Positions 38,873-42,804 of a stretch of DNA of 64,000 nt are shown here, one piece after another. The notes beneath the pieces are model-generated. The model saw nothing but the letters and a program-made list of their open reading frames with translations, was not told the origin of the DNA and ran no database searches. Positions within the stretch are counted from its first letter, which is position 1. Every line of letters begins with the position of its first letter. Source of the DNA: Ignavibacteriales bacterium (GTDB lineage: Bacteria; Bacteroidota; Ignavibacteria; UBA10030); contig JAPLFR010000015.1 of NCBI GenBank assembly GCA_026390575.1, positions 295,101 to 359,100 on the forward strand. The letters are read 5' to 3'. Made by a program: the position numbers and the translations under genes.

Positions 38873-38949
38873 CGTTGAACAAAGAAACGAATAATTAACC
38901 TAATTAATTTAATTAACTTTATAATCAACATTTTATTGGAGGATTTATC

Positions 38950-39348
38950 ATGGGACAACAACAATTATTACTCATCATCCTTGGCGTTATCATCGTTGGT
39001 ATCGCAATTGCCGTAGGATTGAGCCTATTCAGCGCGCAAAGTGTTCAGTCGAATCACGATGCAATTATCAATGATTTAAACAATATTGCCGCAAACGCAT
39101 ATCAACACTATATTCGTCCTGCCTCTATGGGTGGTGGCGCAAACTCTTACGATGGTACAGGCGCCGCTGGTGCCGCTGCGTATTCAATACCAACCAGAAT
39201 GCAGACTAACGAAAATGGAACATACACAGTAAAGAATACAGCAACCGCGTGTACTATTACAGGTAAATCAAGTTCAGTAACTGGTGCAGATGTCACAGCG
39301 ACAGTAGATAACCAAGGACATGTTGGAATAAAAGCTACTGGTTGGTAA
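38950..39348 (+). CDS. Pilin-like small exported protein, copy 1
   Basis: 132 aa, preceded by an excellent ribosome binding site (GGAGGA). It starts MGQQQLLLIILGVIIVGIAI, a hydrophobic helix beginning right after a Gly2, reminiscent of a type IV pilin N-terminal helix but with almost no leader and no Glu at +5. A soluble domain follows with AYQHYIRPASMGGG, a TNENGTY strand and CTITGKSS, then a glycine-rich turn. It is a close paralogue of the next gene (39642). Family uncharacterised to my knowledge. A surface filament or pseudopilin is a guess; secretion of some kind is likely. Confidence 0.75.
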   Translation: MGQQQLLLIILGVIIVGIAIAVGLSLFSAQSVQSNHDAIINDLNNIAANAYQHYIRPASMGGGANSYDGTGAAGAAAYSIPTRMQTNENGTYTVKNTATACTITGKSSSVTGADVTATVDNQGHVGIKATGW

Positions 39349-39386
39349 GCTATAATTCTGATTATAGAACAGTCGTTTTTCAATAT

Positions 39387-39427
39387 ATCCCAACCATCTT
39401 TTTGCAAGTGGTTGGGATTTATTTTTA
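39387..39427 (+). terminator. Terminator after pilin-like copy 1
   Basis: ATCCCAACCA (39387-39396) pairs perfectly with TGGTTGGGAT (39409-39418), followed by TTATTTTTAG. The 10-pair stem and T-rich tail indicate that copy 1 is transcribed alone. Confidence 0.85.
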
Positions 39428-39507
39428 GAAGTTAAAAAAGTTGAACCATACAGTAATTTGGTTGTCGACAATAACATATTTTAAAAACAGATTAAGCAGT
39501 CAAGCTG

Positions 39508-39524
39508 TCCCGATTCTATCGGGA
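39508..39524. other. Short perfect hairpin
   Basis: TCCCGAT-TCT-ATCGGGA, a 7-pair stem with a 3-base loop and no T tract, between the two pilin-like genes. Belongs to the CCCG/CGGG hairpin set. Confidence 0.5.
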
Positions 39525-39641
39525 TCAGCATATAGGTGCAAGACATTAGATAGGTTCCGATCCCGTTAGACTATTGCCTACTGTGATGGAACGACAATAT
39601 ATTTTTGATATGGCTTATAGCAATTCACTAGAGAATTTATC

Positions 39642-40055
39642 ATGGGACAACAACAGTTATTGCTAATCATACTTGGATTGGCCCTTATTGGAATTGCACT
39701 GGCTGTTGGATTGAGTTTGTTTAGCGCAAACAGCATTGAGTCGAACAAAGATGCAATCATCCATGATGTTCTTAATATTTTTGCGGCAAGCGCATATCAA
39801 CACTATCTTCGTCCTGCGTCCATGGGAGGCGGTTCATACGCTTATGATAATAGTAAGGGCGGTGTCGCATATACGATACCGGCGTTATTGACGACTAATG
39901 AAAATGGCATATACAAGGCTGTCACTACACCAACTACCTGTACTATTACAGGTAAATCTACTTCCTATCCAGGCAATTCAGTTTCTTTAACAATCGGCGT
40001 TGATGGTAAACCTGTGGCTCCCGGTTGGGTTATTGTTGGTCCAGACTTCAATTAA
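39642..40055 (+). CDS. Pilin-like small exported protein, copy 2
   Basis: 137 aa. It begins MGQQQLLLIILGLALIGIAL and shares with copy 1 the helix end GLSLFSA, the block AYQHYLRPASMGGG, the TNENG strand and CTITGKS, so the two form a recent-looking duplication with a diverged C-terminus (VAPGWVIVGPDF). The first helix lies directly after Gly2, with no basic leader. A weaker ribosome binding site (AGAGAA) precedes it. Glycosyltransferase genes follow, consistent with a surface role, but nothing proves one. Confidence 0.75.
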   Translation: MGQQQLLLIILGLALIGIALAVGLSLFSANSIESNKDAIIHDVLNIFAASAYQHYLRPASMGGGSYAYDNSKGGVAYTIPALLTTNENGIYKAVTTPTTCTITGKSTSYPGNSVSLTIGVDGKPVAPGWVIVGPDFN

Positions 40056-40279
40056 GTTTCAAGCCAGACTATGGCAAAGTTGTTTCGTATATATTCCTTA
40101 TCATCCAGATAAGAAATTGGGGATAATTTTTTTTGTTCTGTGCGTCAAAGAACCGTCTTTTATCTGTTTTACTTATTCATACGTGTATTTTTCTTTTTTG
40201 GCTATCCCGCACAATGCCGTTACCCGCATAATGAGGGGAAACACTTTTTCTTTTAAAAACTTTATTGTATATATCTCTT

Positions 40280-40996
40280 GTGAAACCAAAATCCAAAGTT
40301 ATTGTCGTCTTACCAGCCTATCAGGCCGAAAAAACATTAGAACTCACTGTTCGCGATATTCCGCTCTCTGTCGTCGATGAAATTATTCTCGTCGACGATA
40401 TGAGTAATGATCATACAGTGGAGATCGCACGGAAATTTAATCTCATTATCGAGCAGCACACAAAAAATCTAGGCTATGGTGCAAATCAAAAAACATGCTA
40501 CCAATTAGCCCTTCGTCGAAATGCAGATATCGTTGTTATGCTTCACCCTGATTATCAATATGATCCGAAGCTCATCCCTTATTTTGTCGACTTTATCCAA
40601 AACGGCTATTTCGACGTTATGCTTGGCACTCGCATACGTACAAGAAAGGAATCCTTAGCCGGAGGAATGCCGCGCTATAAGTACTTCTCAAACCGACTCT
40701 TGACACTTTTTGAAAATATCATAACCGGACAAAATCTTTCTGAATGGCATACGGGCATGAGAGCCTACAGCCGTCAAGTATTGGAATCAATCGATTATTT
40801 GAAAAATTCAGATGATTTTGTTTTCGATAGCCAGGTATTATTTCAAATTGTGGAGCACGGTTTTCGCATGGGAGAGATTCCTGTACCTGTTCGGTATTTT
40901 CCAGAAGCTTCCAGCATTAATTTCTTTCGTAGTATGCGATATGGAATCGGAACCGTTGGAACCGCATTAAAATACTTACTCAGAAGAATATTTTAA
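40280..40996 (+). CDS. Family 2 glycosyltransferase
   Basis: About 238 aa from GTG 40280 (TTG 40265 would add five residues). The GT2 fold is read from VIVVLPAYQAEKTLELTV, DEIILVDDMSNDHTVEIA and the metal-binding region VVMLHPDYQYDP; the acceptor loop region has GGMPRYKYFSNRLLTLFENI. This resembles dolichol/undecaprenyl-phosphate sugar transferases (DPM1-like), which transfer a sugar to a lipid carrier. No C-terminal membrane segments. It may supply lipid-linked sugars to the neighbouring membrane transferases. Confidence 0.88.
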   Translation: MKPKSKVIVVLPAYQAEKTLELTVRDIPLSVVDEIILVDDMSNDHTVEIARKFNLIIEQHTKNLGYGANQKTCYQLALRRNADIVVMLHPDYQYDPKLIPYFVDFIQNGYFDVMLGTRIRTRKESLAGGMPRYKYFSNRLLTLFENIITGQNLSEWHTGMRAYSRQVLESIDYLKNSDDFVFDSQVLFQIVEHGFRMGEIPVPVRYFPEASSINFFRSMRYGIGTVGTALKYLLRRIF

Positions 40997-41190
40997 TTTC
41001 TCATATTTTATCACTCCCATCTCAACGAAGTCAAAATGAATCCAGGGTCAGACTATCACATTGTTTTGGGGGAATGGCAAAGGCTTTTGAGGGTGATTGA
41101 GTTTTGTGGTCTCACGATGAAATGAAGAGAATGGATAATTCGCTGAGTAATTTCAGATAATTGAATTGTAAAGCACTGGCAGCATTCAAT

Positions 41191-42804
41191 ATGAAATCGA
41201 AAACACTCAATATTTATCTTCCTTTACTCTTTCTCTTTTTCATTGTTCTTTCCACAATTATTCTGCGAATGCGATTACTTGATGTTCCCCTCGAGCGCGA
41301 TGAAGGCGAATATGCCTATATAGGTCAACTTATTCTCGATGGGACCCCACCTTACTCCGAAGCGTACAATATGAAATTCCCCGGCATCTACTTTTTCTAT
41401 GCGGGAATATTATGGCTTTTTGGTGAGACACATACGGCTATCCATTTTTGTCTGCTCATTGTCAATGTATTATCGATTATACTTCTTTACATTTTTGCGC
41501 GCACAGCGTATGATGATTGGGTTGCAGCGGCTGCAGCTGGTGCTTTTGCGTTATTGAGTATGAGCTACCACGTTCAAGGATTTTGGGCAAACGCAGAACA
41601 TTTTATTTTGCCTTTCATCATAGGTGCAAATCTTCTATTACTTGTGGGACTACGGAAGAACCGAATAGATTATATTTTATTCGGTGCTCTTCTGTTTGGT
41701 TGTGCTGCTCTTGTGAAACAACACGGCGCATTTTTTGGTCTCCTTGGATTTGCGGCATTGCTTATTTCATTGTGGCAAAACAAAGCACTCGATAAAAACC
41801 AATACTGGAAGTACCTTGTGGTTTATTTTTCGGGAGTTATTATTCCATTGCTCTTATGCTTTTTCTATCTCGCGTATGCAGGAGTTTTTCATAATTTCTA
41901 TCTTTGGACATTTGCCTACGCCAAGGAGTACACTTCGCTTGTACCAACGACGTATATTACATACTATTTTTTTTCATCCTTTCTCCCTCTTTGGCAACAC
42001 ACAACACTCATTTGGATAATAGCCGGTATTGGACTTATAGCTTTATTTATTTACGTTCCCGACAAACAATCGTATCTGATCGTTATGGGAATGATCATTG
42101 CGAGTATCATTGCTCTTTCCGTAGGCTTTTATTTCAGGCCGCATTATTTCATTTTAATACTGCCAGCCGTAGCCCTGCTCTTTGGAATTGGAGTTCGTTT
42201 CATTTTCCGTGTTTTTTCACCTGCCTCGTCATTCATCATACGCTATTTCCCACCCATTTTTATTGTTACAATAGCAATTCTTGGCACCCTTGCTGCCCAT
42301 TGGGATGTTCTTGTTCAATTTTCACCTGCTCAAGTGACCACGACACGGTATGGTCAAAATCCATTCCTTTATTCTTCTATGATCGGAGAACTTATAAAGG
42401 AAAAAACATCAAAAGACGATCGAATAGCAATTATCGGAAGCGAGCCGCAGTTCTTATTCTATTCTCAGCGCCGGTCGGTGACATCGTTTATTTATACATA
42501 CGCTCTTGTCGAAGACCAACCTTTTGCTGAACAATTTCGCTCTGAAATGATCCGTCAAGTCGAATCAGCAACTCCTAAACTTCTTATCTTTCCACAAGTC
42601 ATACCCGAATGGTATACAATATCGAATGGAGAAAAGGAAATAAATAGATGGTTCTATAATTTTGCGAAGTTACATTACACCCAGGTTGCTCGTTTTGAAT
42701 ATTCCAGTAGTGAGGACACAATACTCGTTACAGATCCAACGCTTATAACAAAGAAACCAACACATTTGTTTTGGATCTCGATTTACGAACTACAAAAAGA
42801 TTGA
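41191..42804 (+). CDS. Membrane glycosyltransferase (GT-C fold, ArnT/PMT-like)
   Basis: About 537 aa from ATG 41191. Some eleven hydrophobic segments start with YLPLLFLFFIVLSTIILRM. The first extracytoplasmic loop has the catalytic acidic pair in LERDEGEYAYIGQLI, typical for GT-C enzymes that take sugars from a polyprenyl phosphate donor. The C-terminal ~150 residues form a soluble domain. It likely glycosylates a lipid or protein on the outer face of the membrane. Donor and acceptor unknown. Confidence 0.85.
   Translation: MKSKTLNIYLPLLFLFFIVLSTIILRMRLLDVPLERDEGEYAYIGQLILDGTPPYSEAYNMKFPGIYFFYAGILWLFGETHTAIHFCLLIVNVLSIILLYIFARTAYDDWVAAAAAGAFALLSMSYHVQGFWANAEHFILPFIIGANLLLLVGLRKNRIDYILFGALLFGCAALVKQHGAFFGLLGFAALLISLWQNKALDKNQYWKYLVVYFSGVIIPLLLCFFYLAYAGVFHNFYLWTFAYAKEYTSLVPTTYITYYFFSSFLPLWQHTTLIWIIAGIGLIALFIYVPDKQSYLIVMGMIIASIIALSVGFYFRPHYFILILPAVALLFGIGVRFIFRVFSPASSFIIRYFPPIFIVTIAILGTLAAHWDVLVQFSPAQVTTTRYGQNPFLYSSMIGELIKEKTSKDDRIAIIGSEPQFLFYSQRRSVTSFIYTYALVEDQPFAEQFRSEMIRQVESATPKLLIFPQVIPEWYTISNGEKEINRWFYNFAKLHYTQVARFEYSSSEDTILVTDPTLITKKPTHLFWISIYELQKD

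Follow-up and report, generated by a model that had tools for sequence, protein, structure and literature searches.

Can a protein take its place in a type IV filament without ever having been a prepilin? This question is raised by two tandem genes in a 64,000-nucleotide stretch of DNA from an Ignavibacteriales bacterium (GenBank assembly GCA_026390575.1, contig JAPLFR010000015.1, positions 295,101 to 359,100), here called the window. The first gene (38950..39348, + strand) encodes 132 residues beginning MGQQQLLLIILGVIIVGIAIAVG, and the second (39642..40055, + strand) encodes 137 residues and matches the profile of the family described below with E 5.6e-35. Both proteins start with MGQQQLLLIILG, run immediately into a hydrophobic helix, share 59-62% identity and contain the blocks AYQHY-RPASMGGG, TNENG and CTITGKS, in agreement with an earlier note on this DNA, which had described a tandem pair with a common start and these motifs. 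Type IV filament subunits are defined by a leader of 6-26 amino acids, with the prepilin peptidase among the conserved proteins of these systems (Berry and Pelicic, PMC4471445). The cleavable leader and its peptidase are held to be universal and defining, and pilins are sought by that signal (PMC4471445). According to genes and predicted fold, the window pair very probably represents major-type subunits of a type IV filament that are translated already mature. It is also likely that they belong to a whole branch of the filament superfamily that works without prepilin processing, its subunits being born mature and the peptidase having been lost from most carriers. If this is true, such a pilus skips a step thought to be universal.

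The predicted fold is that of a type IV pilin. The AlphaFold2 model of copy 1, based on 88 aligned sequences, reached a pLDDT of 96 and has a single helix over residues 2-55 (54 residues) followed by strands at 90-96, 101-107, 114-119 and 125-130, so that a long helix from the N-terminus lies against an antiparallel sheet. In a second structural comparison the matches ranked 1 to 22 were all type IV pilins or fusions thereof, headed by PilV (Z 10.5, 85 aligned residues, 1.7 Å) and including full-length PAK pilin (Z 8.9, model residues 4-132 onto pilin residues 1-134) and Thermus PilA4 (Z 8.7), while the first unrelated chain scored Z 5.9. The proteins had been called pilin-like beforehand, with an unrelated fold named as the outcome that would speak against it; this outcome was looked for in the predicted structure and the pilin fold was found instead. 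Neither protein matched any model in Pfam and NCBIfam scans, and a PDB sequence search with the pilins returned Geobacter geopilin alone, at E 0.065, a mere hint.

The two copies are members of a large family. The source genome (3.82 Mb, 99.9% complete) has a third copy (L003), unlinked to the window pair, and a profile built from the three copies was run against 395 sampled genomes of the phylum, in 170 genera, and detected the family in 129 of these genomes and 72 of the genera; two or more paralogues per genome are common among carriers. The named records come from Ignavibacteria, Melioribacteraceae, Kryptoniota, Balneolia and KSB1. Among the 88 aligned sequences, residues 1-27 have a mean majority identity of 87%, as opposed to 45% elsewhere. 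This conservation of the N-terminus, together with the repeated occurrence within the source genome and across the phylum, indicates that the observation is not due to chance. No description of MGQQQ proteins or of this family was found in the literature searched, which covered little of the subscription journals and preprints, and searches on peptidase-less pili and on Ignavibacteria pili gave no account of it either. Thus, with no Pfam or NCBIfam model and no published description found, the view that this is a real and uncharacterised family stands. A pilin of the Ignavibacteria type was also seen on contigs L103 and L131, labelled Deltaproteobacteria (JAJZQA010000274.1) and Patescibacteria (JAHISB010000030.1); these labels are probably binning errors.

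The genomic context links the family to a pilus machine. In many genomes an operon runs in the order pilin(s), pilC, pilB, in part the minor pilin genes here named I, J and K, then pilT, pilMN, pilO and secretin. A less biased set was retrieved solely by protein similarity; of its 56 contigs that extend far enough, 33 have pilC on the same strand within 3.5 kb downstream of the pilin, often at 70-350 bp. The comparison of neighbours proposed in the earlier note reveals a large family that often heads a pil operon with pilC and pilB. The platform protein domain T2SSF (PilC) is present in 128 of the 129 family carriers among the 395 genomes (Fisher p 5e-59, a value that overstates the association because related genomes are not independent). 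T2SSF, T2SSE and secretin (PF00263) were identified in the operon by Pfam, and the PF00263 secretin is also present in the source genome, so an assembly ATPase and a polytopic platform protein are encoded with the pilin. The PilB protein matches the NCBIfam model type_IV_pilB with E 1e-122, and its closest solved structures are Geobacter PilB entries (best E 5.5e-86). There is also a PilT-type retraction ATPase, as expected of a type IVa pilus, which matches TIGR01420 (pilT_fam) with E 3e-92 and 309 bits, slightly below the curated cut-off of 319. Proteins of ~510 and ~295 amino acids may be termed PilM-like and PilO-like from their position, their size and, for the former, a weak NCBIfam match to Amuc_1101 (E 1e-4); the PilM-like protein probably corresponds to PilM plus PilN. 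In Balneolia-like genomes (L055-L058) a family of 159-171 amino acids lies inside the pil operon after pilB, and by eye it has the look of a CRP-like cyclic-nucleotide-binding domain.

In the source genome the window pair is detached from the machine operon. The machine genes are found on contigs C11 (pilC, pilB, pilT and the start of pilMN; L045) and C10 (the end of pilMN, pilO and secretin; L188), apparently one operon split by an assembly gap. The PilC proteins of MGQQQ loci form one group apart from 14 canonical PilC proteins of the phylum, with support 100/100, long branches and an unknown root, and the C11 PilC falls inside this group beside those with an adjacent pilin. A Melioribacteraceae contig (L087) has the entire operon with two MGQQQ-type pilins at its head. 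For Melioribacter roseus, pilT, pilQ, pilB and pilC were reported in 2013, and neither pilA nor pilD (PMC3534657); the MGQQQ family is probably the missing pilA.

The two window copies may differ in role as major and minor subunits, as the earlier note supposed; both are of the major-pilin type, and the minor pilins I, J and K are separate genes. These three operon families, of which I and K were named by sequence features only, start at the hydrophobic helix or a few residues before it. The J model (pLDDT 86, 15 sequences) matched ten entries of GspJ/XcpW/EpsJ and Thermus TTHA1219 with Z 10.0-12.7 (TTHA1219 12.7; GspJ/XcpW 10.0-11.6), followed by the Streptococcus sanguinis minor pilin PilB (Z 6.3) and by a first non-pilin at Z 3.8. 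When compared with the pseudopilus model 9a1f, residue 2 of J aligns with residue 1 of mature XcpJ. J also has an invariant Asp, which stands at position 6 in 12 of the 15 sequences and would become residue 5 after Met removal, the place of Glu5. Methionine aminopeptidase acts on proteins whose second residue is Gly, Ser, Thr or Ala. J mostly has one of these four at the second position, and the major pilin always has Gly; in I the residue is mostly Asn, and this minor pilin probably retains its Met. Contig C2 of the source genome (L043:4358-9465) has another pilC-pilB cluster that belongs to this branch; its minor pilins resemble I, J and K and are leaderless, and no MGQQQ pilin adjoins it.

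The likeness of these minor subunits to GspI, GspJ and GspK and the GspJ-like fold of J raise the possibility that the system is a type II secretion system in which the major subunit, a pseudopilin like GspG, builds a short endopilus in the periplasm instead of a surface pilus. This alternative concerns function only and is compatible with the missing leader and peptidase, and the NCBIfam scores of PilC and of the secretin are nearly equal for the type II secretion and type IV pilus models. However, an ATPase of the PilT/PilU family is a mark of retractable type IVa pili, the operon PilB is closest to type IVa PilB, type IVa pilins head the list of structures similar to the major subunit, and several pilin paralogues per genome are common. 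Hence we regard a secretion endopilus as possible but rather unlikely, and a type IV pilus as the better description.

The absence of a leader is a property of the genes and not of their annotation. Among 176 distinct members the nearest upstream in-frame stop lies at a median of 4 codons from the start, 171 have no upstream in-frame start (5 have one), and a suitably spaced Shine-Dalgarno core stands before 126, as opposed to ~9% of random stretches; missed upstream start codons were thus rejected as the cause. The members were picked by their MGQQQ start, but the result on upstream starts and stops is independent of this selection. None of the 176 has a charged residue in positions 1-24, and the class III leader of 6-26 residues ending in Gly is not found in the family. 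It is true of both window copies, as noted earlier, that a basic leader and Glu at +5 are absent; the "two-residue leader" once ascribed to them is right in that the helix directly follows the start, and is better described as no leader at all. As read from the sequences, neither the pilin nor, with few exceptions, the I-, J- and K-type minor pilins have one. That signal peptidase I removes a Sec-type signal peptide was judged unlikely on reading the sequences: they have no basic n-region and no conserved A-x-A site, and their hydrophobic helix passes without a break into that of the pilin.

In most carriers the peptidase is undetectable as well. Neither Pfam nor a profile tuned to the phylum, read out to E 10, found a Peptidase_A24 in the source genome, and in 114 of the 129 family carriers Pfam did not detect it. 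The domain is present in 51 of the 395 genomes, all with T2SSF, and the 15 carriers among them also hold a second, canonical PilC; in 12 of these 15 the A24 gene lies on the same contig within ~30 kb of this higher-scoring PilC of ~375 amino acids. As a positive control, classical prepilins (KEDG↓FTLAELL) were found in 9 of 15 canonical loci of the phylum, several of them from MGQQQ-carrying genomes, whereas a search for canonical prepilins hidden in MGQQQ loci gave none in 1.57 Mb. The tuned profile, made from 20 sequences, recovered divergent A24 proteins in 5 further genomes with canonical PilC and in no MGQQQ-only genome. There no match was better than E 1e-5, and many lay in open reading frames of ~1000 amino acids; these weak matches were taken as chance. 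It should be noted that MSH loci without a peptidase gene have been explained by sharing with other systems (Denise et al., PMC6668835).

The earlier note proposed Gly2 as a cleavage site, and a fuller form of that idea is that the protein is a type IV pilin of the ordinary kind and that a prepilin peptidase, either highly divergent or not recognised as such and with its gene at another place in the genome, cuts it after this residue. Gly2 does stand before the hydrophobic stretch like the prepilin Gly(-1), G↓Q occurs in archaeal class III signals too, and A24 profiles miss some Cytophagales-like genomes. Such a cut would, however, leave a leader of two residues, as opposed to the 6-26 of known leaders (PMC4471445). 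The tuned profile that rescued A24 in canonical genomes did not do so in MGQQQ-only genomes, and among the genes of the conserved operon there is no unassigned one for a membrane peptidase. A shared cleavage site is also lacking, because translation of the minor pilins J and K begins at the mature N-terminus or only a few residues from it. Because no Peptidase_A24 is detectable in the source genome, we consider cleavage after Gly2 improbable; it would be enough for methionine aminopeptidase to take off Met. The earlier interpretation thus holds as to a pilin-like, uncharacterised family of filament-machine subunits, for which fold, operon and phylogenetic profile speak, and is improbable as to the processing.

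It is highly improbable that these are membrane or secreted proteins that never polymerise, their pilin fold being a relic, for although the filaments are deduced from genes and predicted fold and the occurrence of the same ectodomain on two polytopic proteins means that this domain can be of use without being pulled from the membrane, conservation within the protein is highest in the helix, as expected of an assembly interface, and the family tracks the PilC/PilB machine with its gene heading the operon. The two polytopic proteins, of 260-264 amino acids, are encoded in the source genome at L004:1465-2259 (C16) and L005:1051-1833 (C10) and bear the pilin-family ectodomain behind extra transmembrane helices, so they could hardly be extracted as filament subunits. 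Each of their genes is flanked by genes for membrane proteins of ~219 and ~142 amino acids, and similar proteins occur in relatives.

Several observations weigh against the proposed filament of unprocessed subunits. Both the filament and the mature N-terminus are deduced here from genes and predicted structure, the major pilin lacks the acidic residue at +5, and Foldseek by itself was weak, with no E below 0.001 for either of two models, although pilins were among the top rows for the first. No pilus-machine gene lies near the pilin pair in the whole window, and the 20 fetched operon regions were chosen partly for close pilC and pilin matches. The A24 profile has false negatives, as seen from several Cytophagales-like genomes and two carriers (G046, G175) in which canonical PilC is present and A24 was not detected. 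A non-homologous peptidase, beyond the reach of profile searches, is also conceivable.

Taking these points into account, the proteins are type IV pilins by fold, operon and profile, yet they lack the leader and Glu5, and for their machine a peptidase is undetectable in most carriers; therefore they would function as type IV pilins do and are best placed as a processing-free variant of the filament superfamily and not as standard prepilins. In the proposed model, the start codons of major and minor pilins would have shifted to the maturation site. The subunit would insert into the cytoplasmic membrane with its N-terminus inside, and methionine aminopeptidase, for which Gly2 is an ideal substrate, would take off Met1 to give GQQQLLL... 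PilB and PilC would then extract the subunit from the membrane and polymerise it via the 54-residue helix, the filament would exit via the secretin, and the PilT-like ATPase could retract it. The MGQQQ system would be a natural test system for the roles of the leader, Glu5 and N-methylation.

Among known systems, type IVa pilins (PAK PilA, Thermus PilA4, Neisseria PilV) share with the MGQQQ system the fold, the long N-terminal helix, the minor pilins and the PilB/PilC/PilT/PilM/PilO/secretin machine. It differs from them in that its pilin is leaderless and matches no Pfam model, Glu5 is missing from the major subunit, a prepilin peptidase is undetectable, and PilC has an N-terminal extension and forms a group of its own. 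The operon minor pilins resemble GspI, GspJ and GspK, and J shares the GspJ/XcpW fold, but they are leaderless, with the start codon at or near the mature N-terminus, and residue 5 of J is Asp. The mitochondrial type II secretion system (miT2SS) is a machine of the type IV filament family that likewise lacks the prepilin peptidase GspO (PMC10128026); however, its GspG begins with a long targeting sequence that a different protease presumably removes, and its minor pseudopilins have been lost. The pilus-like cluster Amuc_1098-1102 of Akkermansia, from a different phylum, gave weak NCBIfam scores, and the likeness depends on the PilM-like protein (Amuc_1101) and the secretin (Amuc_1098).

In the window, a Shine-Dalgarno sequence GGAGG (38938..38942, + strand), read from the sequence, stands 7 nt upstream of the copy 1 ATG. 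Between the pilin genes there is a likely intrinsic terminator (39387..39429, + strand), made up of a stem-loop (39387-39418) and a U-rich tail, with UUUAUUUUU after the stem-loop; the RNA fold of the 106 nt at 39340-39445 has a minimum free energy of -24 kcal/mol and z -2.44. The terminator previously noted after the first gene is thus likely, although a simple terminator scan missed it, probably because of a bulge.

The glycosyltransferase genes reported downstream of the pair were also identified by Pfam: a GT2 enzyme resembling polyprenol-phosphate sugar synthases (40265..40996, + strand; PF00535, E 4e-19) and a PMT_2-type (GT-C) enzyme (41161..42804, + strand; PF13231, E 1e-12). Homologues of GT2 or PMT_2 adjoin detached pilin genes at seven loci (L066, L067, L082, L089, L096, L101 and L131) in both orientations, the PMT_2 type at L066, L067, L089 and L096. 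Glycosyltransferase homologues were found beside none of 39 pilC-linked pilins, whereas 5 of the 19 detached loci with enough flanking sequence in both directions have them. This contrast (Fisher p 0.0025) suggests that GT2 and PMT_2 may be a dedicated pilin glycosylation pair. The earlier hint of a glycosylated appendage thus gains modest support from the neighbourhood of detached loci, glycosylation itself being still deduced. The PMT_2-type protein is a candidate O-glycosyltransferase and GT2 its candidate partner, and the two may decorate the window pilins; pilin-glycosyltransferase gene pairs of similar arrangement occur in Pseudomonas and Acinetobacter.
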